This document shows positions 3,627 through 51,241 of a DNA stretch of 64,000 bases, piece by piece. Under the pieces are notes generated by a model that made no database searches, was not told the origin of the DNA, and saw only the letters and a list, made by a program, of their open reading frames with translations. The stretch's first letter is position 1. Each line of letters begins with the position of its first letter. The translations under genes were made by a program, and so were the position numbers. The stretch comes from Utricularia gibba (Eukaryota; Streptophyta; Magnoliopsida; Lamiales; Lentibulariaceae), in contig CM007989.1 in assembly GCA_002189035.1 (NCBI GenBank), positions 5,921,001 to 5,985,000 on the forward strand, written 5' to 3'.

Positions 3627-4487
3627 TTAGATAGTGTTGTAGAACATAATGCTGAAAACACTAGTAGTAATGAAGAGAAATGAAGAAATATTGAATATGG
3701 AAAAAAAGGAGATGGTACTATCGACAATACGATAGTGCATAAAATCCTCAAGCAAAGAAAGAGCTTCGGTTGGTGTCTTCTTCCTTAAAAATCCTCCTGC
3801 CGCCGAATCTATCATTGCTCGATCAGTGCATAACAATACATCATAGAAATATTTGACCAAGGCATTGGTCTGAAAACTATGGTGTGGGCAGGAGCCCAAA
3901 AGATGATTAAATCTTTCCCAATATTCGTTCAATGATTCTCCACTCATTTGTTCAACATCACTAATTTCTTTTCTGATTCCTTCAGTCTTGGAAACTGGAA
4001 AATACTTGCTCAAGAACACGTTCTTCATTCCAACCCAATCGGTTATGCTTCTAGGCCTTAATGAGTTGAACCACATTTTGGCTCCTCCTTCCAAAGTAAA
4101 CTGGAAGGCTCTCAAAAAAATAGAATCTTCAGTCATCTCAGCTCCCTTGAATGATATACATACAGCTATTACAATGTCTAGATGCTCATGGGGATTTTCT
4201 CCAATTTTTCCATAAAACTTTGGCAAAAAATTTATCATCACCGGTTTTAGCTCGTTTGCTCCATCCTCTGGAAATCTGATGCACAGACCCCTATAAGTAT
4301 GATCAGTAGCATCCAATTCGTTCAAAGTTTTCTTAAGTTCAGCCATTTTGAAATTACTGTTATTCTCGGGTGAGAGCTGCCTCAATCTGCTCGCTTCCCT
4401 AACTCTAACCTTATTCTTGCTGATAACTCTCTCAATTTCTGGGAGGAAAGTGAGATTACCTGCACCAGAAGAACGTAAATGCATCAA
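3627..4487 (-). pseudogene. Ty3/gypsy gag fragment (retrotrans_gag domain)
   Basis: This frame encodes the capsid-type gag domain of plant Ty3/gypsy retrotransposons. The diagnostic block runs from about residue 75 to 250: a PKFYG segment, then ENPHEHLDIV, FQFTLEGGAKMWFNSL, FLSKYFPVSKTEGIRKEI and AMIDSAAGG, all typical of the family. The stretch after about residue 250 turns into low-complexity hydrophobic sequence, and no zinc knuckle, protease or polymerase follows. The element is therefore truncated near 3720. Just upstream on the same strand are a primer-binding site at 4517-4533 and the LTR beyond it, so this is the first part of an element's interior. It is not a host gene. The first methionine is arbitrary. 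Confidence 0.85.
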
Positions 4488-4536: not shown

Positions 4537-7075
4537 TGATAAACGGAAATTTTAGCATATCGTTGCAATAAAACAAACTTCGTATCAAATACATTTATAA
4601 TCCCTAATGCTCACAAAATACAAATTAATCACAAAACGTACAGTGGAATTCAGGGTCAATCACAAGGAGCTTGTGCTTGTCATGTATTTCAGCAAATGTA
4701 GAATTCAAAGTAAACAGTGGTAAATGATAAGTGATTTTGTGTCATTCCAAAACATGTTCTTCCACTACTCTTGAGTGTTGTTTTTACTTATCTTAGACTC
4801 CACTTTCTCATTATTCTCAATTGATTTTGCATCTTTCACACTACTTTGATCTTTTTGGAGGGAAAGTGTATTTTGTGGATTTTTAAGATACTTTTGGATC
4901 AATTTGAGGAGAAATCAAGACCCACCAAATTATGGACTTGATGGACCGCGAATCTCAGCCCAAGACTCGGTCAATGATGAAGATTTGGTCCAAGATTCGT
5001 GGATAAGATAGAGATGTGAAGAAGATCTTCGAAGATTTGGATAGAAGATCTTATCCAAGCCCATCGAATAAGCTCAATACGAAGACTTGGATCTACTCTA
5101 CTATAAATACTCCACCCTCTAAACCATTAGAAATGTCTTTGACCACTTTTACTTTGAATCTTTCCTATTTTCATGTCTATTTTCATGTTTGAGTCGAGTC
5201 TGCGCGTGTAACCGCTTGCGGCTGAGGATCTGCGGTGAAGCCTTGCTTGCGCAAGTCCTGCGCATGTGACTATTTTTTACTATGTTTTTCGACATTTAAA
5301 TTGAGGTTTGATTCTATTTTTTGCAACGTTTTCTTTACCAATGTGATCTTTAGTACCATATAACTCTAAGGGAGTGTGGGAGAATCAAAAGTTGGCCTCA
5401 AGCACCTAAGGAGAAGGGCTCAATCGAACATCATTGATAAGACACATTCTATCTAATCTATCTGCGAGGTGTGAGGTGTAGGGGTTAGATTTGGGTGTGG
5501 ATAAAACATGGGTTATCACAAGAGGTGAAATGGCTATAGTGGCGTGGTTGATTCCATAATCACACTAAACGAGGGACGGTGCTATAACAGTCACCGAGTA
5601 GCACTATTTTAGAATAACACCCCAGAACTTGCGCAAGCAGGTCAGTTTTCAAGGTTTACACACACAAGTTTGGGTGAGTTTTGAGCAAGATGGATCCCAG
5701 GTCCAATGCCATTTTTCTTCTTGTTTTTAAAACCAAATATTTCTTTTGTTTTCGTTCTTTTTGAGTCTTTGTTTGAAAAGAAAATTCCAATAACAATTCC
5801 CTGTGGATACGATCTTATTTTATTACTTCGATGGTTTCTGTGCACTTGCAGAATCAGTAAACAAGTTAGGTAAACAAGATTAGTAAATAATATCAGGTCT
5901 TAACACTAAGGTAACAGGTACTGGTTCTAACTCAAAATAATACTATTGTGCCTTAAGGGTCTACAGGTGGTATAGTACCCAAATTCCTAATTTAATCTGC
6001 CATGTTCCTATACTCAAAACTTCAAGTAGCCTAAGTCTACCCACATCATTCATCATATTTTTGGCTAAGTTAGTCCCTCATATCATCACCAACATTGTAA
6101 TTAGGTCTAACCCCATGCAAGGCATATAGAATTATGTCTACCTGATTCTATTGGTTCTACCCCGGACTAACACCTACTGTTCACGTCTTGATTTGTTGGT
6201 CTACCTCTAAATCAAGCATCTAAGTTGTGAAGCTACTTGTTTCCCTTCTTAGGTCTACCCATGGCTTTATCGAAATAGGAACCAAGGGACAATGGTGAAT
6301 TTTATTAAGACTCCTAAACCCACACTACCATGTTTCACCTTAAAGCACTCCTAGGGTTTAGCTATTCATGCTTTGAAGGTAAAAAGTGATGACATTAACA
6401 TAAAACAATGAAAATGTTAAAAACATTGTGCAGAAGTTGAGTGCAGAAACTACAGACATCAACAAACTAAAAGAAAGCGATAAGTGTTCCGATTTCCATC
6501 TGCCACTGTTTATAGGCTGGAATAGTGGCGCTGGATTGGGTCTTGATGCTGTTCTTGAGGATGAAGTTCTTCTCCTCTTCTAATCGGTGTTCTTCGTGTT
6601 GGAGGTGTTGTTTTTGGTAGAGAAGTCGTCCCCCTCACCGCTGGAGTTTGCTGAATGTTGGAGGGAAAAATCCCCCCGTGTGTATTCTGAAAAGCACGTT
6701 GTCCCCTTGCGATTCTCTATCCTCTCACTTTCTCTTGCCTCCCACTACCCAAGGCAAGTACATTCTCTGACAGTTCTGCTGCTCCTGCCCCTGACTTGCA
6801 GACTGCTATCGGGACAATGTATTCATTGCCTCCTGCTGCGCGGTAACTTACACGAAGTCCTTGATTTTTCCATGATTTTCGGGTAGCTGCGGGGGCTCAA
6901 AATTGGGTTAGAACATGAGTAGCCTAAATCAAAGGATTTAGACCACTAACACACCAAAAATCACATTTTCCTAAATTATATATAAAAATACTTAAAACTA
7001 TAAAATAAACAACTAAACATCACTAAAAACTCATGATTTTCATATCCTAAAAACATGAAAATTTGTGTGCTATCA
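4537..7075 (-). repeat. Gypsy family B LTR, split by a solo LTR
   Basis: On the minus strand the LTR starts TGATAGCACACAAATTTTC (right edge 7075) and ends TTTATCA (left edge 4537), next to the primer-binding site. Without the family A solo LTR nested at 4725-5856 and its duplicated 5 bp it is about 1.4 kb. A diverged plus-strand copy with the same beginning lies at 33068 onward. The 99-codon frame at 6587-6886 lies inside the LTR and is not taken as a gene. Confidence 0.75.
4725..5856 (+). mobile_element. Solo LTR, gypsy family A, with 5-bp TSD
   Basis: A 1132-bp unit starting TGATAAGTGATTTTGTG and ending TTGCAGAATCA. It is flanked directly by GTAAA at 4720-4724 and GTAAA at 5857-5861, a 5-bp target duplication. 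No interior sequence is attached, so it is a solo LTR left by recombination between two LTRs. A TATA-like CTATAAATAC lies near 5101, as expected of an LTR promoter. Other copies are at 18471-19590 (with primer-binding site), 22523-23039, 13096-16980 (decayed, interrupted) and 62700-63048 (decayed). Confidence 0.88.
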
Positions 7076-13406: not shown

Positions 13407-16399
13407 TAACCGTGGGCATGGGTCATAAACCACTGAGTCACGGGTCAATCAAACCAGGTCATGCTCTGGGTCATGGGTAGACGAGTTGCAGGTCAACGGG
13501 TTTTAACCCTTGACTCAACCTGTACCCGTAGGTCATGCGAGTACGGGTTGTTGGGTTGTGACCCGTCGATGTGTCAAAGGGAGAGAGATGGGGCGGGGCT
13601 TGACAAGAGAGGTATGGCATTGAGAGAGGAGGTATGGTGTGAAGATTGATGGGATTGTTCCATCAAGTACATGTACCATAAAGCAATTATTTATGTATAT
13701 GAAACAAATTTTTGTATTTTCTTCAAAATCACCTTATGAAATATAAGTAAAATTAAAATGAATCAATATACAAAAAAGGTAATACAATAATATAAAAGTT
13801 TTCCCTCTTTTTTTTTCCAGACTTAGACTAGCTGTGTAGTTTAAAACAACACAGTTGAAGTTAAAACTTTTTTTGCTAATTTAAGATAATATTAAATGAA
13901 TAAAAAATTAAAAAAAAATGTTTACTCTTTTTATGATGTAGAACTATCATCTTCCTTATCATCATCTTCTTCATCTAAGATAAGATTTTGCATTCTATGG
14001 TCTGCTCCAATTCAATCCTTTAAATAAATGCAAACCTCCAATATTTTATTTGCTAATTTGAGCCGCCATGATGACAATACTCTCCCACCTAAATTGAATG
14101 CACTTTCCGATACAACTGTAGACACAAGGGATGTGAAAATTGCCCTAGCCACTGCTGCTAAAGCAGGATAAACTGAGGATTGACCCTTCTATCGAGCCAA
14201 AATATCAAAGTTGTCTCCTTTATGCTGCACTTGATGCATTACATTATATAAAGCAATCTCATTGGTTTTTGTGATAATGCTAGGAGAAGCTGAAATCATA
14301 GTATAAAAATCATCTATTCCTGAAGGTTGGTCTGATTCAGCTACCTCAAAAACAGATCTAACACAGCAAATCTTATTCTCAAATAAGTCATACAAATGAT
14401 TTAAAGCATTGATAGCAGTATTATACACAGCATTAGATTGACATAATGGAAATTTAAGATAATAAACATAAGAACAATAAACATTCAAACCAGTTTGTAA
14501 ATCAACAACTTTAACTCTCGGATAAAGTATATTGGAGACAAGGAAGAGAATAAGAACATTGAGAAAATACTTAACGAATTTTTCAACCATAATTGAAACA
14601 TTTTCTCACAAAAACTCAACTTCAACATATTTTTTAAATGTATTTGAAATAGTAACTAAAGGTGGTAGTACTAAATGTGTTGTAGGATAATAACAACACT
14701 AAATAAAATAATATATTTCTCAAAAACGTCAAGCATTTCACACAAAGTCTGAAATTTAAAAAATATTTCAGAATCAATTGAACAATTTTGATCAACATGC
14801 ATTCTCATAAATAATGGAATAATACTCTTATATGAAAATAAAAATCTGAACATGTGAAGAGTAGAATTCTATCTAGTTGGACAATCTTTTTTTAAAATTC
14901 TATATGCAATGCCTCTAACCTCATAAATACTTTTGAAAATGTCTCTTTTAGGACTAGATTTTTTTCACCAATTTATGCAATGAAACAAGAGCATCTACAA
15001 AATTATATATTCGTAAAGCATCTTGTAAACATAAATTCAAAATATGACATATACATCTCGAATGAAAAAAAAACACCACCTAAAGGAGGATTTATGGAAG
15101 ATTTCAAGCCTGAAATAGCATTTGAATTGTTAGAAGCATTATCAAGAGCAATTGAAAATATACGTTCAATAATACCATATTCAACAGAAACACTAGTAAT
15201 CAACTGAGCAATTTGGGCACTTGTGTGTGGAGTGTCATAAGGTCTAAATGCTAAAACTCTTTTTTGCATAATCCACAAATTATCAAGCCAATTAGCAGTG
15301 ACAACAATATAATCTTCACCATTATTACCATGCCAACCATCAGCAAACAATGCAAATCAATATTTTAGAGATTGAAATGAAGAAATTAAAGCTGTTTTTT
15401 TCTTTTCAAATTGGTCAAAAGTAATCCGAATAGCTTTTCCTCTAGAAAAAGACAGAAAATGAGGTTGCAATCAAGTTTTAAAAAAATTTGACATAAATGT
15501 ATTTTCAACTTTAGTAAAAGGTTTTTCATTAGCTATCAAAGTTAGAACATAATCAATTTGGGCTAATTCATTATCAAAACTAAATTTAATAGCAAGATTA
15601 CCTACGACAATATTCAAAGTAGATTGAAAAACATTACTAGTGTATCTATCAGTATGCTTGTTCACTATATGTCTCAAAAAATTCAAAGTTGAACCATCTT
15701 TTCCATGTTTATAAGAAATATGGCAGTATTTGCATATTATCTTTCCTCTTATCAAATCATGAACAAAGTGCTCATGTCAACAAAATTCATATTTTCTTTT
15801 GTTTGAAGATGGGCTAGCCTCTAGAATTTCAAAATCATTCTCTGGAAATTCGGATTCATCATCTAAATTAACCACAGGATGAGATGCCAAAGGATTGGAT
15901 GATTGCTCAATCATATTCGCGTTGAGGATTTGAGGAGGAGAAATTGGATAAAAAAGATGTTGCATTACAAATTGTTAATTCTCATTTTTTAAACCCTAGA
16001 CGTATGCATGTTAATGGACAGCCCAAAAGCCTAGTTGGATCAAAGAAACAAAATATTCATTATCATATTGTGACATTGTGATAAAGGAATACTATTATTA
16101 ATTATGTGCACTCTCTTTCTTCATCATTCAATCACATTTAATAAGCTGCATTCAATACTTGCATAAGGGTAGTCATTCTATGCATATGATTACAATGGGC
16201 CGGATATTAGGTCTGAACCAAACTTTATCTCAATTTGGATTGGGCTTTAATGGGTTAGCCCTATCCGGCGGGTCAATCCGTTCTCGTTTTAGGATGACTT
16301 GACCCGTACTTGTATAGTACGAGTACGGATAACCCGTTCCCGTATAGTACGAGTTGACCCATGGGTCGACGAGTCAACCCACAACTGTGCTCACCACTA
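13407..16399 (-). mobile_element. hAT DNA transposon with 8-bp TSD
   Basis: A 2993-bp element. The left end reads TAACCGTGGGCATGGGT and the right end, reversed, TAGTGGTGAGCACAGTT, imperfect terminal inverted repeats. Flanks are ATCCAACT (13399-13406) and ATCCAATC (16400-16407), an 8-bp duplication with the last bases changed, as expected for hAT. Both subterminal zones (13420-13580 and 16200-16385) are rich in GACCCGT/ACGGGTC-type motifs, typical binding clusters of hAT transposases. The interior carries a broken transposase on the minus strand. Confidence 0.85.
13931..15965 (-). pseudogene. hAT transposase, broken
   Basis: Read on the minus strand from about 15965 to a stop at 13931, roughly 2 kb, the normal size of a plant hAT transposase (650-700 residues). 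Visible parts in order: an acidic N terminus; a BED zinc finger at 15755-15640 (CKYC, later HIVNKH); the catalytic region near 15350-15100 with LDNASNN; a central part at 14590-14189 with the YPRVK segment; and the C-terminal dimerisation block near 14170-14050 (STVVSESAFNLGGRVLSS). Several in-frame stops and frame breaks interrupt it, so it cannot make a full protein. It belongs to the element 13407-16399. Confidence 0.85.
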
Positions 16400-17179: not shown

Positions 17180-17700
17180 TGTTACATTTTTTATTCAAAA
17201 CTGTTTTGAAGAAAGTACAAGGAGTGATATAGAACAGTTGACTTTAGACAAAAGAAGTTCTAGTCAGCCCGCCGATTGCTAGGGTTGGAATACAATCTAA
17301 ATAGGTTCCATAATTCATGTAGAATTATGAGTTGTTTGTCCATTAGAGGGCCGAAAAACATAAATAAGGAAAAAACTTCAATTCTTCTCGGGCACATTTG
17401 ACTCACATCCATCTTCTATTTCTTTAGATGTAAATCGCTCCTTCTGGGTTTACAGCTGAGGAAGACATCCAACAATAATCACACTGAAGACTACATGACA
17501 TTCCCGTGAACAATTCATACAGCCCACAAGCCACAAGAAATCAAAGGCAAGAAAACCAACAAACAGAAAATGAAAAATACAATCACGAAATCAACCAAAC
17601 ATAGTCACAATGCACTGGTGGTGAAGAAAACCACGTACAGCGACAACTAGAAATGTACAGAAGGACCTAGATGTTAGCGCAAAGCCGAAGCACAAAAACA
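17180..17700 (-). repeat. Copia LTR, outer border unclear
   Basis: The inner end, GTAACA on the minus strand, abuts the primer-binding site at 17179, so an LTR must extend to the right. I could not identify the outer TG terminus; 17700 is a guess. No second copy of this LTR is visible in the window. Confidence 0.45.
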
Positions 17701-17883
17701 ACACGGATTTGATCGCTGGAGCTTCAGAGACTTGAGGGCTCCAAATCTAGTTTATTGTCTAATGCACATCTGTTTTCAATAAAGAGATATTATTGTTTGA
17801 TGAAGGGCAAAGTTGAAAGATTTGAGCTGTATTTACCATTCTGTGAATGCAGTCTGCTGTTTTACTTTAACATCATTTTATAA

Positions 17884-18099
17884 TTGTATTGTGAATCGAG
17901 GATCCATAATTTCATCCCAGTGTTAGGTGGAGAAAGCTGGCAGTCATCACGGTTTCTGCAGGAGGATCCCCCTACTTCAATACCATCACCGCTGCCCATG
18001 ACGGGATACCACGGGTATGGGTTTCCAGGCCCCTGGGGAAGTGATCCTCCAGATTCGGGTGGAGATCCACCACCATCGCTGCCTCCCACCAGCCCATAA
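17884..18099 (+). pseudogene. Pro/Gly-rich C-terminal exon fragment (left copy)
   Basis: A 71-codon frame rich in proline, glycine and serine (EDPPTSIPSPLPMTGYHGYG, then FPGPWGSDPPDSGGDPPPS). Composition and balanced codon use suggest the C-terminal part of a real protein, but I do not recognise the family. The same frame occurs in the right arm (23414-23629, minus) with only a few residue changes (Q/R and L/P). The 41-bp repeats follow after the stop, where a 3' untranslated region would be. No upstream exon is apparent on this side; beyond the right-hand copy a different short coding fragment (23812-24005) lies upstream on the same strand and may come from the same gene. Confidence 0.5.
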
Positions 18100-18129
18100 C
18101 TTTCGTCTCCGGTTGACGGGAAAACCTCC

Positions 18130-18252
18130 GGTCTATTGCACTGCCTTTTGGTTTGTCCAAGTCGTTGTTTGGTCTATCGCACTGCCTTTTGGTTTGTCCA
18201 AGTCGTTGTTTGGTCTATTGCACTGCCTTTTGATTTGTTCAAGTCGTTGTTT
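18130..18252 (+). repeat. Three 41-bp tandem repeats
   Basis: Three consecutive 41-base units beginning GGTCTATTGCACTGCC, at 18130, 18171 and 18212, with one to three changes each. The same triplicate is in the right arm at 23261-23383. The open frame 18017-18295 over this tract is probably a by-product of a repeat unit that is not a multiple of three. Confidence 0.93.
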
Positions 18253-18470
18253 GCATGTCTGCTTCGATAATTCAATGTATATGGGTTTTATATGACTTTG
18301 GTACCAAAAGCGTGAAACTTTTAAATTTAAATGGATATGAAAAGTGTTATTAAATGGGATACATGATTGTCATTTTTTTTTATTGAACTTTCAATAATTA
18401 TAAATCAACAACAATAATATTTTAGATCCATCTATAAAATTCAATATCAATTTCTTTTTGTCAATAAATC

Positions 18471-19590
18471 TGATAAGTAATTTTGTGTCGTTCCAAAACA
18501 TGTTCTTCCACTACTTGAGTGTTGTTTTTACTTATCTTAGACCCCACTTTCTCATTATTTTCAATTGATTTTACATCTTTCACACTACTTTGATCTTTTT
18601 AGAGAGAAAATGTATTTTGTGGATTTTTAGAATACTTTTAGATCAATTTGAGAAGAAACAAGATCCACCAAATTATGGACTTGATGGGCCACGAATCTTA
18701 GCCCAAGACTTAGTCAAACGATGAAGATTTGGTCCAAGATTCGTGGATAAGATAGAGATGTTAAGAAGATCTTCGAAGATTTGGATAAAATATTTGGATA
18801 GAAGATCTTATCCAAGCCCATCGAATAAGCTAAATACGAAGACTTGGATCTACTCTACTATAAATACTCCACCCTCTCAACCATTAGAAACGTCTTTGAC
18901 CACTTTTACTTTGAATCTTTCCTATTTTCATGTTTGAGTCGAGTCTGCGCGTGTAGGCGCTTGCGGTTGAGGATCTGCGGTGAAGCCTTGCTTGCGCAAG
19001 TCCTGCGCGTGTGACTATTTTTTACTATGTTTTTCGACATTTAAATTGAGGTTTGATTCTGTTTTCATTACCAACGTACTCTTTAGTATCATATAACCCT
19101 AAGGTAGTGTGGGAGAATCAAAGGTTGGCCTCAAGCACCTAGGGAGAAGGGCTCAATCAGACATCGTTGGTAAGACACATTCTGTCTAATCTATCTGCGA
19201 GGTGTAAAGTGTAGGGGTTAGATTTGGGTGTGGGGAAAACATGGGTTATCACGAGAGGTGAAATGGCTCTGGTAGTGTGGTTGATTCCATAATCCCACTA
19301 AACGAGGGACGGTGCTATAACGGTCACTGAGTAGCACTATTTTAGAATAACACCCCCAGAACTTGCGCAAGCAAGTCAGTCTTCAAGGTTTACAGACAGA
19401 AGTTTGAACGAGTATTGAGCAAGATGGATCCCAGGTCCAATGCCACTTTTCTTTTTGTTTTTAAAACCAAATCTTTCTTTTGTTTTCGGTCTTTTTGAAT
19501 CTTTGTTTGAAAAGAAAATTCCAATAACAATTCCCTGTGGATACGATCTTATTTTATTACTTTGACGGTTTTTGTTCACTTGCAGAATCA
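18471..19590 (+). repeat. Gypsy family A LTR (5' LTR with PBS after it)
   Basis: A 1120-bp LTR, TGATAAGTAATTTTGTG to TGCAGAATCA, highly similar to the solo LTR at 4725-5856. A primer-binding site follows after a short duplicated piece. A TATA-like CTATAAATAC lies near 18859. The first 517 bases lie in the left arm of the inverted repeat. Confidence 0.88.
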
Positions 19591-19682
19591 CCATCAAGTT
19601 TTTGAATTCCCTGTGGATACGATTTTATTTTATTAATTTGACAATTTCTATTCACTTGCAGAATCACCATCAAGTTTTTGGC
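19531..19682 (+). repeat. 76-bp tandem duplication at the LTR end
   Basis: TTCCCTGTGGATACGAT begins at 19531 and again at 19607; both units continue through GCAGAATCACCATCAAGTTT. The LTR end (GAATCA) is thus present twice, at 19590 and 19666, and only the second is followed by the primer-binding site. Confidence 0.85.
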
Positions 19683-19690
19683 GCCGTTGC
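19679..19690 (+). other. Gypsy primer-binding site
   Basis: TGGCGCCGTTGC follows the duplicated LTR end, the usual start of the primer-binding site in plant Ty3/gypsy elements. The sequence diverges from the consensus right afterwards (CTATG instead of CGGGG), so the interior has been cut here. Confidence 0.7.
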
Positions 19691-19734
19691 TATGTTTTGG
19701 AAATAGAAGTAAGGCTAGCATGTTTTGGAACGAA

Positions 19735-19799
19735 ACTCAAGAGTAGTGGAAGAACATGTTTTAGAACGACACAAAATCATTTATCAACTCCCCCACACT
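19735..19799 (-). repeat. Gypsy family A polypurine tract and 3' LTR start
   Basis: On the minus strand AAGTGTGGGGGAG (19799-19787) is a typical plant gypsy polypurine tract, followed immediately by TGATAAATGATTTTGTGTC, the beginning of a family A LTR, which breaks off near 19735. Upstream on the same strand is TTGCTTGAGGACAAGCAA (near 19808-19825), a block commonly found before the tract in such elements. The element read on this strand thus ends here in a truncated 3' LTR. Confidence 0.8.
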
Positions 19800-22522
19800 T
19801 AGATATTGCTTGTCCTCAAGCAATTGTTCAAGGTATTTTACTCCAAAGTAGTAATTTGCAAATAGAAGTAAGGCTAGCAAAATGCATGAGTTATTCAATG
19901 GTACACCATCCACTAGCCCTCCTTGCACTTAGCTACTCCTCACAAGTCACTCAATACGCTCAAAACAAGAAATCCATAAGAGGAGGATGAAATGAAAAGA
20001 GGATCGCTCAATACCTGAATGTAGGCGAGTCAGTAAACTTGCGCAAGTGATCCACTAGTTTCAGCAAGCTTGCGTAATCATGAGGTCTTTTTTTCGGGTT
20101 GTAGCACGGCAGGATCTTGGGACAGGTAGGAAATTCGGTTGGAGGCTCCATTTCATGAGTAATAAGGAGTGAGCATCCATCAAACAATTATGTCATGCTT
20201 ACCTTTTGATTTTCGTACTCCAAGTAACTCCTTCTCTTTCATCTTTGTGGCTTCTTTTCAACACTTTAGCCTTTTTCTTTCTTCTTCTCTCTCTCTCTTT
20301 TTTTTTGATTCTTTCTTTCTTTTTTTTCGAAAGTGATCTGTCTCTTGCATAGGATGTCTGTTTGAAATCCCTTCACAATTTTTTGAGATAGAGCTTGATC
20401 ACTAAGTTGAAAATTGCTCTCAACTTTTCTTCTTTTGTAATAGAGCTCCTGGTTCTGCAGCTTGTGCAAGCAAATGAATAGTACTGTTCTCCAGATGCTT
20501 GTTCCTTGGGTCAAGAGAAATTGCAGTAAGCTATAATTATAGAAATGGATTTGGCTTTTGATGTGGTGATCCAAATAAAAGGGTTTTAGGCTAAGCGGGG
20601 CTCACAAAGCGGATTCAAGGTGGGATATTAGGATAAAATAGGGCAAATCCTAATGCGTCAATCCCGTTGCGCAAGACATGTAGAATAACCCAGCAGTATA
20701 CACAAGAACATGCTCATGATCGTGGTACATTCAGGTCACTCATAAAGAAAAGAGAATACAAGTGTCTCCTCACCAAGAAAGTAGGGCTATGTAGCTTGTG
20801 CAAGGAGTACAAAATGAATAGCATGCAAAAGAATACCTTAGCAAGAAGCCTGCCAAAATTCTAATGCACAGGAACTATCTTGAAGAAATAATACCAAAAA
20901 TAAAAGCTTAAGTTCCAGCAAAACACCAAATGTAAGGTTGTAATAAGTTAGTAAATAAAATCACATTCCATTTGCAGAAAAATGAAAATGATAATTCTCC
21001 TCCACACTTGAATAAGAACTTATTTGCAAAGCTTGAAGAAATTTGACCTGAATCACTTATTCTAAAAAGTAGAATTTTCTTCATCTGGACAACCAATATA
21101 AGTTGCATGGCATGTGCATTTTCGTGGTCATTCATATCAGCCTGTTCGCAACTTTTAAATGCAGAAACCTCATTGCACAAGTTGCAATGATACTTGCACA
21201 AACATACTGGACATATATCAAAACTCATAAACCAACTTGTTTTTGAATGGCAACAAGTAAGCCATGCCTTGGTAAAAGATTAATGTGGTCGGTATGGAAA
21301 TGTGTGAAAGCGAAGAGCAAACCTCTTGAATTTTCCATGCAGCTTCTTCCACTTCCTATTGCTCCAGAATTTATTTTGAAAGAGCCCCTTGGTGGCACAA
21401 ATCACAGCCCATCTTGATCTCAAATTTCTTGCAAAAAACTAATGCATTGAAGAGAAAACAGAAACTTCATGACATTTTATACGTCTCATCTTGCGTAAGT
21501 GCCCATCACGCCATGTTTTTGTTTGCTCTTTGTACAACTCAAATGGAAAGCTCCAGTGCATGGAATCAATGCATAGAATTGTGATCGAAGCTTCCTTGAG
21601 TTGCTGCATTCTACAAAAGAAATCTTTGTTAAAAAAAAAAACATATTCTTCAACTAAATTCTCACTTGTGATGACAAGTTCTTCTTCTTTCAAATCTTTT
21701 TCTATGAAACTTAGGGACCTTTGAACCTCCTCTTGATGTGTGTCCTGATCACATAATTCGTGGGTGTGGTCCTCAAAAAGATCTACTGCTTGCAAATGTT
21801 CATGTGTAACACAATCTGCTTCTGCAGCTCGCGCAAGGTCAAGGACACGCATCGTTGGAACTCCATCTTCAATTTCAATATCCTCGCATCTAGTGGGGGT
21901 CTCTTCCAATTGACATGAATACTCTGATGTACAGATGGCTTCCAAATCATTCAATTGAGCTTTCAGCATTTGATTTTTAGTTGTAAGTTGCTGCAACTTG
22001 TCATTCATGCCATGCAATCTCTTCATTTGATCTGAAAATTCTTCTTTCACTTGCTTGAATTGCCCAATGACCCCATCTTTCATCTTCTTGATTTGATCAA
22101 ATAATTCATTATTCATCTGCTCTTATCTTTCAATGATTTGACTCAACATATCTCTCAAGGATGGACATTCAGGTTGTCTCCAACCATGATTTGAGTTTTG
22201 TTGGTTGTCAACCTGATTTGCATGACTTTCTCCTTGTGCAAGTCTGATATAATACCTCATGAATTTCTCCTCTAACTCTTCATCTTCAGAATCACTTCCA
22301 AAATCATTGTCCTTTGAATCTAATGATGAATGAGATTGATACCTGGTGTATTGTTGCTTTTTGGACCTCCAATCTTTTTCGTACCCAACATCATTATAAT
22401 AAGCATGAGATTCATTCACAGTCCTTTCTCTGGTGCAGTAATGATTTCTTGCTGGAAGTGGATTTTGTTTTTTCGTCCATGCTTGCGCAAGCATCAATTG
22501 ATCTCTATTGTACTTGCGTAAT
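19800..22522 (-). mobile_element. Interior of a gypsy-related element (non-autonomous?)
   Basis: This stretch lies between a truncated 5' LTR (22523-23039) and the polypurine tract/3' LTR start (19799-19735), all on the minus strand, so it is the interior of one element. It contains one broken coiled-coil frame (21439-22530) and about 1.6 kb of non-coding sequence with several TTGCGCAAG-like motifs. No protease, reverse transcriptase, RNase H or integrase motif is visible. It is either a large internal deletion or a non-autonomous element. Confidence 0.6.
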
Positions 22523-22530
22523 GGCTTCAC
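21439..22530 (-). pseudogene. Coiled-coil element protein with an in-frame stop
   Basis: Two frames, 22530-22123 and 22116-21439, are in the same phase and separated by one stop codon, together about 360 codons. The first part is basic, then has an acidic stretch (DSEDEELEEK); the second starts with heptad-like charged sequence (about residues 1-60) that suggests a coiled coil, then an acidic region. I do not recognise the family. Its position inside an LTR element suggests a gag-like or accessory element protein. The first codons (MKPLRKYNRDQ) overlap the last bases of the truncated LTR, so the true start is lost. Probably not functional. Confidence 0.5.
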
Positions 22531-23676
22531 CGCAGATCCTCAACCGCAAGCGCCTACACGCGCAGACTCGACTCAAACATGAAAATAGGAAAGATTCAAA
22601 GTAAAAGTGGTCAAAGACGTTTCTAATGGTTGAGAGGGTGGAGTATTTATAGTAGAGTAGATCCAAGTCTTCGTATTTAGCTTATTCGATGGGTTTGGAT
22701 AAGATCTTCTATCCAAATATTTTATCCAAATCTTCGAAGATCTTCTTCACATCTCTATCTTATCCATGAATCTTGGACCAAATCTTCATCGTTTGACTAA
22801 GTCTTGGGCTAAGATTCGTGGCCCATCAAGTCCATAATTTGGTGGATCTTGTTTCTTCTCAAATTGATCTAAAAGTACTCTAAAAATCCACAAAATACAT
22901 TTTCTCTCCGAAAAGATCAAAGTAGTGTGAAAGATGCAAAATCAATTGAAAATAGTGAGAAAGTGGGGTCTAAGATAAGTAAAAACAACACTCAAGTAGT
23001 GGAAGAACATGTTTTGAAACGACACAAAATTACTTATCAGATTTATTGACAAAAAGAAATTGATATTGAATTTTATAGGTGGATCTAAAATATTATTATT
23101 GTTGATTTATAATTATTGAAAGTTCAATAAAAAAAAATGACAATCATGTATCCCATTTAATAACACTTTTCATATTATTGATTAATAACACGTTGTTTAA
23201 TAACAAAGCTACCAAAGTCATATAAAACCCATATACATTGAATTATCGAAGCAGACATGCAAACAACGACTTGAACAAATCAAAAGGCAGTGCAATAGAC
23301 CAAACAACGACTTGGACAAACCAAAAGGCAGTGCGATAGACCAAACAACTACTTGGACAAACCAAAAGGCAGTGCAATAGACCGGAGGTTTTCCCGTCAA
23401 CCAGAGAAGAAAGTTATGGGCTGGTGGGAGGCGGCGATGGTGGTGGATCTCCACCCGAATCTGGAGGATCACTTCCCCAGGGGCCTGGAAACCCATACCC
23501 GTGGTATCCCGTCATGGGCAGCGGTGATGGTATTGAAGTAGGGGGATCCTCCCGCAGAAACCGTGATGACTGCCAGCTTTCTCCACCTAACACTGGGATG
23601 AAATTATGGATCCTCGATTCACAATACAATTATAAAATGATGTTAAAGTAAAACATCAGACTGCATTCACAGAATG
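22523..23676 (-). repeat. Right arm of the 1.15-kb inverted repeat
   Basis: The reverse complement of 17837-18987. Bases 22523-23039 are the first 517 bp of a family A gypsy LTR on the minus strand; 23040-23676 carry the gene-like sequence. The LTR breaks at 22523, where it joins the element interior directly (GGTGAAGCC followed by unrelated ATTACGCAAG). Confidence 0.92.
23414..23629 (-). pseudogene. Pro/Gly-rich C-terminal exon fragment (right copy)
   Basis: The right-arm copy of the 71-codon frame at 17884-18099, differing in a few residues (FLREDPP for FLQEDPP, PPPSPPP for PPPSLPP). On the minus strand it lies 180 bp downstream of another gene-like fragment (23812-24005), which may come from the same original gene. 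No family recognised. Confidence 0.5.
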
Positions 23677-23811
23677 TCTGCTTTTTCAGTGAGAAATTGG
23701 ATGAATCATGTATAGCAGGCAGGGAGAGGCATAGACAAAAAGAAACAAATGTGCATCGATTAGGGGAAAGAAAGTACGTGAAAACTCCTGGATTTTCCTG
23801 CTCGCTTCACT

Positions 23812-24005
23812 TGAAGTAATCAGGAGGAGGAACAGAACCACTACTGGAGCAACCTTCGTCATTCCCCAAGAGCTGAGCATCTTCAATTGGTGTATGCGTT
23901 TTATAGAGGTCAATTTTTGCTGTCCTTTTCGCTAACTTGACCAAGTTTTCATGTAGTTGAACAAGTCTTAATAGCACAGCAGCCGCGCAATCCCTTAGCG
24001 CCACT
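23812..24005 (-). pseudogene. Exon fragment of an unrecognised gene, copy 1
   Basis: A 65-codon frame with a helical part (LLRLVQLHENLVKLAKRTAK, then IDLYK) and a serine-rich tail ending SVPPPDYFK and a stop. It looks coding because a second copy at 24757-24963 keeps most residues. The sequence before the first ATG (CTACGAAAG) could be the end of an intron. I cannot name the protein; it reads like the C terminus of a longer one. Confidence 0.5.
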
Positions 24006-24139
24006 TTCGTAGATGAGATTGGAATAAGTTGAATTATAATTATTTAGGTTATTTGATAGATTTACATTTAATTAGCTTTAAAGAATTTTTATATTTGATA
24101 TCTTGAAAACAAAATACTACAAAAAACTGATGCATACAC

Positions 24140-24756
24140 ACATGTATTATCTTAGTTCTAAAGTTCAACAACAAATGACACATAACATAAACATAAACTG
24201 TCAATAGTTCTCACGGAAAAACGACAACAAATCCCAGCTAGGAATAGTGTTTTTCATAAGTAGAAGAAATCTTTAAAAGATGGCTTGAATCATGAATCGT
24301 CTTATTCGTTTCTTCCTATAAGTTTTTCTCAAATCTCCTCCCATTTTCCAGAGGTGTGTGGTGTGTTATTCAAGGGGGTAGAGATATTTTCTTCCCCTCA
24401 TCATTCAAAAAATCTTCTTTTTTTCTTCACCTTAGGATTTCGTGTACTTCATTAAGCTTTTGTCCTTATTTCATGTAACTTCACTGTTCTCTTTCGAATC
24501 TTTGGGATTTGAGTTGCTGACATATGTTTTATTGCTCAAAGTAACTATTAGAACTAAGTCACAAAAGAGTAGAAATACATAATAAGCTTGAGTTTTTTAG
24601 CAAATTATTAGTTATTTTTTTATTCTTAAATACTCAAAAATATGTTTTATCACATTATCCAAGACTAGACTTGTTCTCTAGTCCTAACTAAGATTAACAG
24701 GCGCTAAGCAGTCAAAGAACTTCATGAGCAGAGATGTCAACACTCAACCCTTCACT
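24140..24756 (+). repeat. About 0.6-kb direct repeat, copy 1
   Basis: Repeated in the same orientation at about 27325-27946. Shared landmarks include AGTTCTCACGGAAAAA, CTTGGGATTTG/TTTGGGATTTG, and the closing AACAGGCGCTAAGCAGTCAA. On the minus strand this segment lies just downstream of the stop codon of the exon copy at 24757-24963, so it may derive from a 3' untranslated region. No coding frame of note. Confidence 0.8.
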
Positions 24757-24963
24757 TGAAGTAATCAGGAGGTGGAACAGAACCACTACAGGAGCAACCT
24801 TCGTCATTCCCCAATAGCTGAGCATCTTCAACTGGTGTATTGTGAATTGACCTCTACTTTTATAGAGGTCAATTTTTGCTGTCCTTTTCACTAACTTGAC
24901 CAAGTTTTCGTGTAGTTGAACAAGTCTTAATAACACAGCCGCCACGCAATCCCTTAGCGCCAC
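24757..24963 (-). pseudogene. Exon fragment of an unrecognised gene, copy 2
   Basis: A second copy of the fragment at 23812-24005. The first 35 codons are the same with two residue changes. Then an inserted stretch of about 19 bases, which partly repeats neighbouring sequence in reverse (GTAGAGGTCAATT), shifts the frame. After the insert the nucleotide sequence again matches copy 1, through CCTCCTGATTACTTCAAG. Broken by the insertion. Confidence 0.55.
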
Positions 24964-25099
24964 TTTCGTAGATGAGATTGGAATAAGTTGAATTATAATT
25001 ATTTAGGATATTTGATAGATTTACATTTAATTAGCTTTAAAGAATTTGTATATTTGATATCTTGAAAAAAAAATAATACAAAAAACTGATACATACATA

Positions 25100-27324
25100 T
25101 ATATATAATTTGATTAATTAATTGGTTTAACCTTTAAATTAATATTTAATATTAATTTTCCTTCCATCTCTAAAACCGAGTCTCCCCCCTATGCCATATA
25201 CCAGCAATCCCAAAGTAAATCTTTACTTTGGAATCCATGTAATTTTCTTTTTCACTTGTCTTCATCAGATAATCATGGACAGAGGGAGAAATATTAGGAA
25301 GAAGACTATTCAATTGAACAATGATGACAAGAATTTTGCGGAAAATTTGGCAACAATAACAATCCATCAAATTCTAGTAAGGCAACAACAAACAAGGTTA
25401 GACAATGCAAGAAGACTTATTTCTTATATGATTGATGCCACATAAGAAACAAAAATTTACAATGTCGTTAAAATTGCAAATTATTTTATCAAATAAATTT
25501 ATAAATCTAATTCATATCCAATCATATAACAATTATGAGCATAGTGAATTATGGTCGAATACAAGGAGCTATGTGTTTGTTGTGTAAAAGTTTATGCATG
25601 CTGTTTTGTCATGGTTAAGAGATTATGTATAGGCTAACACAAATTCTATTTAGTGATAAAATACAATAAAGAAAAGTAATAAATTATTGAAATCAGTTGT
25701 TGACTAAGATGAGATGGGGTGATGTGTTGGAACTCTTAGGATTAGTATGCAAATTACTACAACTATCCCACTGTTGCGTGTCGTTTCCTCAATAAATTTA
25801 AATTTAAAAAACGTAAAACACAAAAGAGCGTAGTACGAGTGTCAATCTCAAAAAGTTGAGTTTTGCGAAAAATGTTTTGTAGAAAACTTTTACAAATTGT
25901 CACGAAATTGTAAAAGGGAGTTTTTGAAATGCAAAAATACAAGTTACTATGTAAGTAATGGACCTTGAGTATGGTACACAGTTCCTGGGAAATGCACTCT
26001 GTTTCCTTCTTTTGTTTATCCTTGCCTCGGTTTTACTGATTCCTTCCGAATAGCTTGTTATAGAAGCAAGGAATAGCCTACTCTCCCTTACACTCTAATT
26101 GATAAAGAGGCACGGGAATAGCCTCATGCGGTTCCCCCTTGGACGATTGAGAAGACAATAAGATTGTCATCGATTGTCTTTAAAACCCACGTGTGTCCAA
26201 CTGTTGCCAATGACCAATGGCGAATACGAGGTCACTACTCGTCCACTGTTGCGGTATCTCGGTCACAAACAATTCGCTAATTCCCTCGAATTGATAGGGT
26301 TGCAAATGATGCTCTTCACCTTGCTCTTCATCAAATTTCACGAGGAGTGGCATGCTACTCATAGATCATGATTAGAAAACGTTACAGAAAGACTGCATAA
26401 AGAAGCATGGAAGCATGCAAAATCCGAAATGAATTCAGTAAAGAACCGAGAATTGCACTCAAGACTTAGAAGGAAATTTTATTTACTCTCAAAAAGTAAT
26501 AGTGTCAAAGGGCCATGGAAACAAAAAAAAAATGGAAAACTCTAGTGTTCTTCTTCCTTTGGAGGAGAGGAAGAATCAAAAGTTCTATATGTAAGAACAA
26601 AGTGTCAAAAGGTCAAAAGTCCAAAAATAAGTGTTCCAAATTGGTTTTATCTCACTCCTCACACGCATTAACTTCTTCTGGTCCCCTTCTCATCATTCCT
26701 TCTGTCTTACGGGCACCATCAGCTTTCTCATGCATGCAAGTAAGCATTCAATCATTGCTGTAGACTCTGACATGTCGTAACTCAGGGACCTTGACTAATA
26801 TCAGTTTTCCGCTCACAATTGTACCAAGTCACGTGCAAGGCACAAAAAGTTAGAGTCTAGTCTAAAGTCACAATTGTACCATCCTACAACACTCCACACT
26901 ACCTCCTACCACATTTCAGTCAAAGTACACGAAAAGGATAACGAAAATATACACAAAATAATTATCAATATAAATTCTAAATTGGACGACTTAACACTAG
27001 ATTCATACATAATAATACATAATAATAAGTATAAAATGACACTTAACACCCACCTAAACCATAAATCATTCATCTAACAAACAAAGCTTTAAGAACCAAA
27101 CTCTTGTTTTCCCTAATTTTTTGTCTATCTCTAATTAGGGTTGGTCTAGTGAACTTCACTATTTCCCTCTCCTGAATCTATCCTAAATTGTTAAGAAAAT
27201 AATGTGATTATGTGTTAAATGTGGTTTAATGAACAACAAACATGTAACTCCTTTTGTCCCCAGGCACTATTAGATGCTTTAGCTATTCATGATAACAGAA
27301 TGTAAAACACTTTCATGACATATT
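25100..27324. other. Spacer without recognised genes
   Basis: No conserved protein seen. Parts near 25455-25560 resemble the inner end of the family B gypsy LTR (compare 4540-4660), suggesting an old LTR remnant. The frames at 25191-25445, 26174-26371 and 26874-27077 have no recognisable domains. Confidence 0.45.
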
Positions 27325-27946
27325 ATAAGTATTATCTTGGTTGTAAAGTTCAACAACAAAAGGCACATAACAGAACCATAAACTGTAAATAGTTCTCACG
27401 GAAAAATGACAACAACTCCCAACTAGGAATAATGTTTTTCATAAGCAAAAGAAATTTTCAAAAGATGGCTTGGATCATGGTTCGTCTTCAAAAGAGGTGT
27501 GTGGCATGTTGTTCAAGGGGTTAGAGATATTTTCTTACCCTCATCATTCCAGAAATCTTCTTTTTCTCTTATCAGGAAGACAAGCAAAACAAAAATAATC
27601 TTTCAGCTTTTCTCTTATATTTTTTGTGTACTTCATTCAGCTTTTGTACTTATTTCATGTAACTTCACTATTCTCTTTCGGCTCCTTGGGATTTGGATTG
27701 CTGACATATGGTGTATTGCTCAAGAGAACTATTAGAACTAAGTCACAAAAGCATAGAAATACATTATAAAACTTGAGTTTTCTAGCAAAATACTAGTTAT
27801 TTTTTTTATTCTTAAATACTCAAAAATATGTATTATCACACTATATTACAACGATATTAGACTTATCCTACAGACTAACTAAGACTAACAGGCGCTAAGC
27901 AGTCAAGGAACTTCATGAGCAGAGATGTCGACACTCAACCCTTCAG
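27325..27946 (+). repeat. About 0.6-kb direct repeat, copy 2
   Basis: Matches 24140-24756 throughout, with small insertions (for example about 40 extra bases near 27560-27610) and roughly 10 percent changes. Unlike copy 1 it is not followed by the exon fragment; after AACCCTTCA at 27946 the sequence is unrelated. Confidence 0.8.
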
Positions 27947-41822: not shown

Positions 41823-41943
41823 TGGTATCTAAGCCATAGGTTCATGATCTCGTTCCTGTGGATTTTCTTCCTTCTCGGTTCGTTTTGTACCTTCGTGACA
41901 TTCGTCAATCGCTGGAGCTCTTGATTCTAGATCTGCAGACGCT

Positions 41944-42705
41944 ATGAGTGGGCAGAATGAAAGGGATTCCAGTCTCATAACAATTGCTCGTAATCCGATG
42001 CTTCTTTTGACAGCATCAAATAATCCTGGTACTACTTTGATCAATTTTCCACTCACTAGTACCAATTTCAGCGATTGGAGCCACATTATGAAGTTAGATT
42101 TGGATTGCAAAGATAAATTGGAATTTATCACTGGTGAGATTGTTATACCTAAGTATGATTCCCTTGAGTTCCGATTATGGCAAAAGGCTGATAGTATGGT
42201 GCATTCTTGGTTGTTGCGTGATATTTCTAATCTGATTCCTACTTTCAATAAGGCTCTTATTGCACGTGAAATGTGGATATTGCTAGAAACACATTTTGGC
42301 CAGCCAGGCAAATCGACTGTTTTTCATCTTTTTAAAGAGTTGTTTGTGTTGGAACAAGCAAGTATCGTTACAGAATATTATTTGAAAGTACAGACTCTAT
42401 GGCATGAAATCTCCAGCATTTTACCTATGTCTCAATGCAATAATTGTGGCACTGATTTGGATATGGATGGAGGCTTGGCTATGGTTCGTTTGATGCATTT
42501 CTTAGCAGGACTAAAGGACTCATATGACTCAACTACAAACTTCATATTATCTATGAAGCCAATACCTGCTTTAGAAGAAACATTTTCCATCGTCCTCAAT
42601 ATGGAGCCTGCTAGGGATAAGATGACAAATGTCATCGATTCAGCATTATTGAGTAAGGTGACTGATGATTTCAACACGACAGCATCTGTAGTTCAAAGGG
42701 GATAG
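41944..42705 (+). pseudogene. Copia gag
   Basis: A 253-codon frame with the copia gag pattern: NFSDWSHIMKLDL, an LWQKADSMVHSWLL segment, EMWILLETHFGQ, and MDGGLAMVRLMHFLAGLKDSYD, i.e. the UBN2/Retrotran_gag family. A zinc knuckle follows just after the stop (CTKCNK, then GHLRESC in a different frame at about 42720-42765), so a one-base frame change separates gag from its knuckle. Start by homology near MSGQNERDSS. Non-functional. Confidence 0.88.
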
Positions 42706-42865
42706 ATAAAAGATCAAGATTCTGTACAAAGTGCAACAAGAAGGTCACTTAAGGGAATCTTGTTTTAAAGGATTATCAGATGCGGAATTGCCAAATTAGT
42801 TCCTTGAATTTAAAAGGAAATCTGGGAGACAAACTTGTGGCAAGGCATCGAATCAAGCACATTGC

Positions 42866-43566
42866 GTGGAGAACATTACTCCCTCGGGTGTTGATACTTC
42901 AAGAGTATTGAATGTAGACACCACCTCTCTAATTAAACAAGAGATATTGAAGATACTTGGAATATCAAGACAAAATTTGGTTGGAGTTGGCGAATTCAGT
43001 GGTACTCGTTTTTCCTCTCATCTCTCACTAGGTGTTTTACGTGATTCATATGATTTACATGATTATACTAGTATTCATTGTGCTGCTGTTCAGCGTTCCT
43101 CTATTACTTTGTTTGAACATTATGTGAAGCCATATCAACATTGTGAATGGGTGGTTGACACTGGTGCTACAGCTCATATGTGCAATTCTTCATCCTTATT
43201 CGACACCCTCTTGCCTACCACTTTACATAGTTTTGTTTTCCTCCATGATGGATTAGCAAAGAACATCACCCATACCGGCATCATCAAACTACCCTCCACT
43301 CTCACCCTATCCTCATTTTGCTTGTCCCTTCCTATAGATTCAATTTAATTTATGTGAGTAAGCTAGTTGAAGTTGATATACAATTACTTTTTCATGGATC
43401 TTGTTGTCTTCTTCAAGACCTTCGATCTAACTCATTACTTGGGGTGGGAAGACTGAAAGCTGGGTTGTACATCATAGATGCCAATTCCTTCCATCCTCAA
43501 GTTTTAGCCACTTATTCTAAAGTCTTAAACCATGCTTTTCCGCCTACTACATGCGATTTTTTTTAG
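42866..43566 (+). pseudogene. Copia protease region
   Basis: Two overlapping frames (42866-43348 and 43318-43566). The first contains the aspartic protease active site WVVDTGATAHMC; the second continues with VPSYRFNLIYVSKL, which in intact elements lies in the same frame. A frame break near 43320-43340 separates them. Together they span the protease and the segment before integrase. Confidence 0.85.
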
Positions 43567-44566
43567 ACATTGTGATGATATGATCAATAAAACCGATTGT
43601 TTTTCACTTATTGCGATGTCGCCTAACTCCTCATCCTTGTTGTGGCATTTGCGTATGGGCCATGTCTCTACCACCGCGGGTAGTCATTTACCCTTTCCTT
43701 GTAGTTTGGGTGATTACCCTTGTGATGTTTGTGAATCAGCCAAGTTCTATAAGTTGCTATTTCGCTTAAGTGAATGTCGCTCCATGGAGTCTCTCTCTCT
43801 AATTCATTGTGATGTTTGGGGTCCGTATAACATTCCTACTTATTCCGGACATTGTTTTTTCTTGACCATTGTGGATGACTATAGTAGAAGTACTTGCATC
43901 TCTCTTTTATCTACCAAAGCCCATGCATTTTCTGCCTTAAAGAATTTTCTTCCCATAGCCAAAACCCAATTTAATTGTACCGTCTACATCCTGCGTTCTG
44001 AAAATGGTGGGGAATTCACGAGAAAGAATTTACTTGATTGGATCCTATCTTTAGGAATTCATCCGGAAAACTCCTACCCTCATTCCCCTTAACAAAGCGG
44101 TGTGGTTGAGAGAAAACATTGCAGTTTGCTCAATATTGCTAGAGCTCTTATGATTCAATTTTGTTTACCGGATGAATATTGGGGGGATAGCATTTTGACA
44201 GCTACCTACATTCATAATAGGTTACTTTCTGCTCTCTTAGCTTGGAAATCACGCATAGAGGTATTGCTAAACCAGCCTCCTTCATATTCTCATATGAGAG
44301 TTTTTGGTTGCTTGTGTTATGTAGCAAATTTAACCCCTTTAAAGGATAAGTTCTCTTCTAGAGTCCTTAAGTGTGTCTTACTTGGGTATCCTGCCAATCA
44401 AAAAGGATATAAATTCCTAGATCTTTCCACCAAAACTACTTTTGTATCTCGAGATGTGAAGTTCTATAAAAATTTATTTCCTTTCAAATATTCCCTGAGG
44501 GGTAATCTGGACACTTTGGACCCTATGTTGCCATTTTTTTGGAGCGAAGAAGTACACTCAGATTGA
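43532..44566 (+). pseudogene. Copia integrase
   Basis: Frames 43532-44092 and 44102-44566, separated by one stop (TAA at 44090). The HHCC zinc finger is visible as LWHLRMGH with CDVCESAKF. The catalytic triad is altered: first D in HCDVWGP present, second position reads RSENGGEF where intact elements have RSDNGGEF, third E in SGVVERKH present. The core continues to GCLCYV and LKCVLLGYP. The C-terminal hinge ends abruptly at 44566. Confidence 0.88.
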
Positions 44567-49324: not shown

Positions 49325-51241
49325 ATGTTGTCAGGTATCTTTCATTTTCGCCATTTCTGAATCCGCGTGATTTTCGTATGATTGCATTAGTATCTTTGTC
49401 AACACGCATGGAAGGTGCTTGTGAAAATGCTCTATGAAACCTTTATTATCCTGTCTACGAAATCATTTTTTTTTTCGTTCCAGTCAAGGCACATTTAAAC
49501 TGCTGTTTTGGTGGGAGCGGTGCTACTCTAAACGATGTCAATACATTCTTTTTTGCTACAGGTGTAAATGTGGAGGTGCAGTTTATGCGTGAAGTTTTTC
49601 ATATTCAGGAAAAAAGTCGCGGTACCGTTGGCAAAAAACCCTTGGCGGTTTCGTTTATTGATTTGTTCAAACTAATTGAACTTTGATTTGAGCTTCTAGT
49701 CTTAGACCAGTTGTCAGAGAAAACATATTCACAATGTATAAATGCTTTGATTTTCTATAAACTTTGAAGCAATTATGTAAGTTACGATAAGGAGATTTCT
49801 AGGGGCCTGTATCTGGAGAGGCAGCAGGTGATGAAGGGAATAGGAATCTCTGCGACTAGCCCGTTGAGATATGAATTTTTCCTTGTATAATATCTACAAT
49901 GGTTCGAGCATTTATTATCTCATTCTATGTTGAAGATCGAATTTGATGCCTATTTGTACAATGAGAACCCTTTAGTCACTTATACTCCACATGCCCTTTC
50001 TTTATTGTTGATGCTATCCATTTGACAATATAATGTATGGAAGATTATCTTGGTAGTCAAGATATCTTTTCTACAATGACCGAAAATTACTTTCTGGATA
50101 TGTGCATAACTGTGTGGTTAGGGGGTTAGCCATGTGTTCAAGATAATTTTTTTTTGCTATCATTTTAGGTGTAACCTGCAGGACTGCCACTTGCAGATAT
50201 ATATCTACCTAGCAGACAAGTCCCCAGGAGAATGAGAATTAGGAGCTTGCTGAATCAGTCACAAAAATTATCTTCTGACCCAGAGCATGAAAAGAGAAGA
50301 CCTCTAGTTAAAATGTGCGGAATTACATCAGCTAGAGATGCTGCAATGGCAGCAGAAGCTGGTGCTAATTTTATTGGGATGATTCTTTGGCCAAATTCCA
50401 AAAGGTCCATTCCAGTTTCTGCTGCGAAAGAGATTTCAAAGGTGGCACGTCAAAATGGTGCTGAGCCTGTTGGCGTTTTTGTTGATGATTGTGCGGATAC
50501 CATTCTAAGGATTTCTGATGAAGCGAACCTTCAATACGTGCAGGTTGTATTGACTATTCTAACAGTAATTTTTCATTATCTGAATTTCATGCATTTCTTC
50601 TTTTCCGTGCAGCTCCATGGAAATGCTTCTCGTGATGCTTTTCAAATCGTCAAGAAATATAACAGAGTGATATATGTTCTCCACGCAAATGAGGATGGGG
50701 GCATATTGAATTCACTCTCTGATGAAGAATGCTCTCTTACTGATTGGATTCTTGTTGACAGTGAGAAAGGTGGCAGGTAAAGATATCCAGTCATGTTTTG
50801 CCTAGCTCCATTTTTTTTTTTTTTTTTTTTGCTTTCCATCTTTTCTTTATGTGCAGCCTTAGTGATAAGCGTATGTTATATCATCCATTTCAAGTGGTTA
50901 ATTAATTTTCTAATTTGGGGAGCACAGATATCGAATTGGTGAAGCATAACCATGAAAACAAGTACTGCGGTTCTACGGGGAAATTAACATCTACCTTGTT
51001 TTGGATTGCTTGCAGTGGAAAAAGTTTCAAATGGTCCAACTTGAAGCTTCCTAATGTTATTAGCAAGCAAGGATGGTTTTTAGCTGGAGGAATAAAGCCT
51101 GAGAATGCATATGAAGCTCTGTCTACCCTTCGGCCTAATGGGATCGATGTTAGTAGTGGCATTTGTGCTCCTGATGGCATTACGAAAGATCACACACGAA
51201 TACTTAACTTCATGAAGGCTGTCAATTCTGTGCATTACTGA
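49325..51241 (+). CDS. PAI1: Phosphoribosylanthranilate isomerase, plastid
   Basis: PAI converts N-(5-phosphoribosyl)anthranilate to CdRP, the third step from chorismate to tryptophan, in plastids. I assemble five coding exons: 49325-49334, 49562-49621, 50182-50543, 50613-50776 and 51016-51241; all have GT-AG borders and fitting phases, giving 822 nt (273 residues, Arabidopsis PAI1 has 275). The TrpF barrel starts at [19 protein letters not shown] (catalytic Cys in MCGIT) and includes [24 protein letters not shown] (catalytic Asp), [14 protein letters not shown] and [14 protein letters not shown]. The first 65 residues are basic and act as a transit peptide. The first coding exon is only ten bases (MLSG); the start could instead be elsewhere, as exons 1-2 rest on splice phase alone. 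Exons 3-5 are secure. Confidence 0.93.

Follow-up and report, generated by a model that had tools for sequence, protein, structure and literature searches.

A 64,000-nucleotide stretch of Utricularia gibba DNA (the window) contains an inverted repeat in whose arms host gene sequence runs straight into the LTR of a retrotransposon. Such a structure raises three questions: which arm is the original, how was the other one made, and could the pair act as a source of hairpin RNA?

Structure of the repeat

The arms, 17837-18987 and 22523-23676, are about 97% identical overall. In the repeat search of the window they appear as two inverted matches, 18335-18987 with 22523-23175 (653 nt, 98%) and 17837-18303 with 23210-23676 (467 nt, 99%). 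Between these blocks lies a patch that does not match (31 bp at 18304-18334 on the left, 34 bp at 23176-23209 on the right). With the left arm as query, a genome search retrieves the right one at 97% identity along all 1151 nt. Outside the patch, the arms differ by 17 substitutions in 1116 sites (1.5%), a match far above chance. In each arm, non-element DNA passes unbroken into the LTR, which starts with TGATAAG at 18471 and 23039. A preliminary description of this DNA had reported near-identical inverted arms, three 41-bp repeats within them and continuity from non-element DNA into the LTR; the repeat search and the genome search agree with it on the arms, and the repeats and the unbroken LTR starts are seen as well.

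The retroelement and its LTRs comprise the following parts:

18471-19672, plus strand: left LTR, complete, about 1.2 kb, TGATAAG...CACCATCA; family alignments end at about 19596/19672
18855, plus strand: TATA-like motif in the left LTR (motif search)
19529-19680, plus strand: duplication of the LTR tail, 76 bp
19679-19690, plus strand: PBS TGGCGCCGTTGC, presumably of tRNA-Asp type; homology to relatives (L048, L049, L051, L053, L054 and L006) stops here, at the inner end of the copied segment
19691-19733: junction filler, 43 bp, made of overlapping local copies (exact-match search)
19742-19786, minus strand: 3' LTR stub, the first 45 nt with the remainder lost, 93% complementary to the LTR start and adjoining the PPT
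19787-22522, minus strand: internal region, reversed, starting with the PPT AAGTGTGGGGGAGT; many copies of 80-91% identity in the assembly
22523-23039, minus strand: right LTR, first 517 nt only, 98.3% identical to 18471-18987

The hallmarks of an LTR element are present, namely TG..CA LTR ends, a PBS after the 5' LTR and a PPT before the 3' LTR (19787, reversed). Pfam found no pol domain in two long ORFs of the internal region, a test limited by the decay of this copy, and no structured RNAs of Rfam were found in the window. By its sequence features, then, the element is best classed as a non-autonomous LTR retrotransposon in decay.

The two LTRs are unequal. The left one extends beyond the arm; it is complete (18471-19672) and followed by the PBS. 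The copied unit is thus longer than first described and embraces the gene end, the full 1.2-kb LTR and the PBS, 17837-19690 (about 1.85 kb). A chimeric left LTR with a template switch at position 517 was considered and rejected, both halves being similarly close to the same relatives (L009 and L003), as for one LTR. On the right side, the second half of the LTR, the PBS and the leader (about 1 kb) are missing in comparison with relatives, in which the sequence starting at 22519 is preceded by an LTR, a PBS and a leader several hundred bases long. This deletion can be read from the alignment with the relatives.

Which arm is the original

The non-element part of the arms belongs to a small predicted gene, whose parts and surroundings are as follows:

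17477-17836, plus strand: native left flank, with an interruption at about 17606-17739; collinear by blastn with the locus lacking the element at C375:683.2 kb
17837-18470, plus strand: non-element part of the left arm, copied in inversion from the end of the intron, exon 2 (here 17927-18099) and the 3' flank
18130-18253, plus strand, mirrored at 23260-23383: 41-bp repeat, three tandem units within the copied 3' part (repeat search); the C375 paralogues have fewer units
23040-23676, minus strand: non-element part of the right arm, native exon 2 and 3' flank, collinear with C375:683498-684314
23176-23209: patch of 34 bp, replaced in the right arm (alignment with the C375 copies)
23586-23414, minus strand: exon 2, Pro/Gly-rich, ending ...DPPPSPPPTSP*, open in both arms and three C375 copies
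Between exon 1 and exon 2, minus strand: intron of 191 nt, splice sites inferred
23862-23778, minus strand: exon 1, 85 nt, with the signal-peptide-like start MTKVAPVVVLFLLLITSSEA (gene model and paralogue alignment)
23911-23896, minus strand: TATA-like motif upstream of exon 1
24750-25109, minus strand: pseudogene, a partial duplicate in tandem, with promoter and exon 1 present and exon 2 missing

The Pro/Gly-rich exon of the preliminary description is indeed present, although it is better read on the minus strand of the right arm, with a signal-peptide exon upstream. The gene model predicts a product of 85 residues, MTKVAPVVVLF...DPPPSPPPTSP; equivalent models in two C375 paralogues predict 78 and 74 residues. 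We regard the product as a predicted small, secreted-type Pro/Gly-rich peptide. The Pfam search of the peptide returned no family, and its dN/dS, computed on 73-78 codons, is about 0.8-1.1, values that say little about selection. The reading frame of exon 2 is open in five places, among them the left arm, which has neither exon 1 nor a promoter.

It had been supposed that the parent gene of the exon resides elsewhere in the genome. The assembly searched comprises 100 Mb in 516 contigs and may be incomplete. Queried with the arm minus its LTR, it yields the two arms, relatives of 70-85% identity on contig C375 and one 37-bp piece at 92%. High identity is thus confined to the two arms, and the relatives of the exon elsewhere are diverged paralogues, mostly 70-80% identical. 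A distant parent was therefore rejected: the parent is the right arm. The right flank, 23685-23997, matches the same places on C375, adjacent to and co-oriented with the right arm.

One of these paralogues, L042 (C375:683 kb), is free of the element. In it, sequence resembling the left flank as far as 17836 is followed by 82 bp that have no counterpart in the window and then by sequence resembling 23040-23981, all in one orientation. By blastn of the window against it, L042 3705-3824 corresponds to 17477-17605 and L042 3813-3909 to 17740-17836, at 80-86% identity. The target site GATTT at 23040 matches the empty site, which reads ...TTGGATTTACTGAC... in L042 and agrees with the boundary between the LTR and GATTTATTGAC in the window. 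Outside the patch, 17837-18470 and the reversed 23040-23676 are 98.7% identical, and the left arm is oriented opposite to the paralogue. Because L042 joins the two flanking sequences without an element, we read the right arm and right flank as the native gene, the left arm as its derived, inverted copy, and 17837-23039 as extra DNA, an inverted copy of the gene end followed by the element.

Another conceivable origin is that two tail-to-tail paralogues were independently hit by one LTR family. The gene family is indeed a duplicated one, including the tandem partial copy at 24750. However, insertion point and orientation are identical in both arms, the arms are 98-99% identical across gene and LTR while no other LTR of the family exceeds 95% identity to them, and the paralogous locus has the left flank beside the right arm. 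We find independent hits scarcely credible.

Order and age of events

Divergence between the arms amounts to 8/599 sites (1.34%) in the gene part and 9/517 (1.74%) in the LTR part (Fisher p = 0.63), and derived changes, judged by paralogues and other LTRs, occur in both arms. No further copy of the gene/LTR junction was found in the 100-Mb assembly. Since gene and LTR parts are equally diverged and other family LTRs are at most 95% identical, the alignments place the duplication after the insertion. The preliminary description had arrived at the same order, with the junction copied, and the equal divergence, the single occurrence of the junction and the element-free paralogue all speak for it. 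A larger repeated unit holding gene and LTR together was also considered; it was rejected, no other copy having been found in the assembly.

The 3' LTR stub differs from the arms at 3-4 of its 45 sites, which, short as the stretch is, fits an older insertion. The plant LTR rate in common use, 1.3e-8 per site per year, is not calibrated for this genome; with it, the 1.5% divergence of the arms would correspond to roughly 0.6 million years, an age that gene conversion could make look younger.

In the alignment, the left patch (18304-18334) retains the ancestral sequence seen in the C375 paralogues. The right arm was therefore altered after the duplication.

This older state of the left arm also bears on the suspicion that the repeat is an assembly artefact, in which an allele of the gene/LTR segment, differing by 1-2%, was attached in the inverse direction. 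A divergence of 1.5% lies within the range of plant heterozygosity. Nevertheless, the window has no N gaps, the left breakpoint falls inside native flank, where the paralogue has 82 bp between it and the insertion site, and the left copy runs out in templated filler that connects it with the stub of the element's own 3' LTR. An artefact of this kind seems to us very improbable.

How the copy was made

The inserted segment is an inverted copy of nearby sequence. Its inner end is abrupt: the left copy stops at the PBS, where relatives go on into the leader. The filler that follows consists of three exact pieces of 11, 20 and 15 nt with 2-nt overlaps, ATGTTTTGGAA (LTR, inverted), AAATAGAAGTAAGGCTAGCA (an exact copy of 19860-19879) and CATGTTTTGGAACGA (LTR 18488-18502, inverted); a 20-mer match of this kind has a chance expectation of 8e-7. 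Sequence was lost at the insertion point: the native 82 bp still present in L042 and the greater part of the 3' LTR. Microhomology was not seen where the copy meets the left flank, at the outer junction (17836/17837).

One might think of a product of retrotransposition, either a read-through cDNA carrying a gene segment or an LTR-PBS cDNA resembling strong-stop DNA, inserted inversely beside the element. In its favour, the complete left LTR stops at the PBS, as a plus-strand strong-stop product would, and a read-through RNA begun in the gene would hold the gene and the 5' LTR. Yet the left arm is unspliced and still has the intron end; gene, LTR and PBS are contiguous with the outer end inside the intron; the inner junction is local filler; neither a TSD nor poly-A was seen, and no second copy was found elsewhere in the assembly. 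Such an origin we consider highly improbable.

The patch, the filler and the junction marks point instead to double-strand-break repair with serial template switching, which in our opinion is quite probably the best explanation of the structure. We infer the following course. The locus would have begun with the small minus-strand gene for a secreted-type Pro/Gly-rich peptide, which a non-autonomous LTR retrotransposon entered, reversed, at GATTT, about 0.4 kb past the stop codon. Later, the element presumably suffered a double-strand break at its left end, that of the 3' LTR. Repair synthesis would then have switched to the other end of the element and the gene flank, in inverted orientation, and about 1.85 kb (the 3' half of the gene, the full 5' LTR and the PBS, 17837-19690) would have been inserted. 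The insert would have been joined to the 3' LTR stub through the 43-bp filler of chained local copies, with the loss of the remaining 3' LTR and, going by the paralogue, of about 82 bp of native DNA. Afterwards, the right copy probably shed the second half of its LTR, the PBS and the leader (about 1 kb) and underwent replacement of its 34-bp patch, changes that together would have left the present arms of 1.15 kb.

Several aspects sit uneasily with this course. The 1.85 kb is long for end-joining filler and would need synthesis resembling break-induced replication, the outer junction is devoid of microhomology, and inverted gene conversion between the arms could make the event look younger. 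In yeast, templated inverted insertions arise at breaks by microhomology-mediated template switching and are mostly very short (PMC11724301). The locus shares with templated or inverted break insertions and with plant filler DNA the local template, the inversion, the loss at the break and the chained short filler with 2-nt overlaps. It differs from the local foldback insertions of yeast, mostly 5-34 bp (PMC11724301), in its insert of about 1.85 kb and its outer junction without microhomology. Among the papers found on LTR-junction inverted duplication in plants, none was a close match.

Possible RNA products and significance

Could the repeat be a locus active in silencing? Transcripts extending leftward out of the peptide gene, or started at the inward-facing LTR promoters, would then yield foldback or antisense RNA, and from it 21-24-nt siRNAs against the peptide family, the LTR family or both. 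The arms are long (1.15 kb, 1.5% substitutions), and transcription of the gene, once past its end, would continue through the right LTR and the element into the left arm, which it would read in antisense. At 18855 (+), 22655 (-) and 23911 (-) there are TATA-like motifs, the first two of which face each other. As to targets, the arm corresponds to exon 2 of the adjacent gene and is mostly 70-80% like the C375 paralogues; each arm has 27-40 exact 21-mers in common with the C375:683 paralogue and fewer with the others. Foldback RNA from read-through also has precedents: dsRNA of this origin was proposed for Mu killer and described for PAI1-PAI4 (PMC3440606, PMC3203196). On the other hand, the spacer measures 3.5 kb and a read-through transcript would have to cover about 6 kb. 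Both arms are drifting, and a deletion and a patch replacement have affected the right one, with no sign of hairpin upkeep. LTR siRNAs, moreover, can be anticipated in every repeat family, and their presence would be no proof of a hairpin origin. We therefore regard an active silencing locus as unlikely.

Hairpin silencing in the manner of Mu killer or PAI is nonetheless geometrically possible. Like Mu killer of maize, the locus is a transposon rearranged by partial inverted duplication, in which one element end occurs twice and beside which lies a gene that could read through; the transposon there is MuDR, whereas here it is an LTR retroelement, and the arms include host gene sequence. With PAI1-PAI4 of Arabidopsis Ws it shares tail-to-tail inverted copies of a host gene and unlinked paralogues elsewhere, but one copy here has only exon 2 and the 3' flank, and a retroelement forms the spacer. 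The inverted-duplication model of new MIRNA and siRNA genes likewise starts from a duplicated gene segment able to fold back and match its parent family; our locus is very young and long, with a large spacer.

If the repeat were transcribed through, from the gene promoter leftward or from the inward-facing LTRs, dsRNA could arise as a by-product. That it forms a young natural hairpin locus, in which read-through of peptide gene and LTR gives siRNAs on both families and so links host-gene control with retroelement silencing, appears to us a distinctly improbable extension. Given the drift of both arms and the sequence lost from the right one, the locus probably has no selected function and is most likely a neutral scar.

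Taken together, templated inverted duplications and potential hairpin loci are known kinds, of which the present locus is a further example. It offers a clean, well-polarised case of retrotransposon insertion followed by inverted duplication of the host-gene/LTR junction, and the order of events can be reconstructed from the legible filler, the old stub of the 3' LTR and a paralogue that lacks the element. Inverted host-gene/LTR junctions of this sort have been proposed as raw material for new hairpin and small-RNA genes. If small RNAs are found, the locus would represent a datable early stage in the birth of a hairpin gene; otherwise it would be an ordinary genomic scar.

Repeats around the peptide gene

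Promoter and exon 1 of the peptide gene, a small minus-strand gene with a secreted-type Pro/Gly-rich product, recur without exon 2 as a partial tandem duplicate at 24750-25109 (94-96% identity to 23805-24150), which is likely a pseudogene. Upstream of the gene there is also a repeat pair of dispersed type (24144-24735 and 27329-27926, 76% identical), for which the assembly holds more than 30 additional matches.

A further copy of the LTR of the studied element lies at 4725-5856, 90% identical, in direct orientation and 13.7 kb away. Close to this copy lies a gag-type ORF (3627-4487, minus strand, PF03732).

Other relics and host genes

15003-15974, minus strand, BED zinc finger relic (PF02892)
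41899-44566, retrotransposon of copia type, decayed (PF14244, PF00665)
50175-50780, phosphoribosylanthranilate isomerase gene, one exon (PF00697)
55618-57579, long ABC transporter ORF (PF00005, PF01061)

The BED zinc finger relic is probably what remains of a hAT transposase. Judged by its layout, the transporter is ABCG-like, and its long ORF accounts for the GC-rich stretch. As for the isomerase, one of the classic silencing loci of Arabidopsis consists of an inverted repeat of this gene family.
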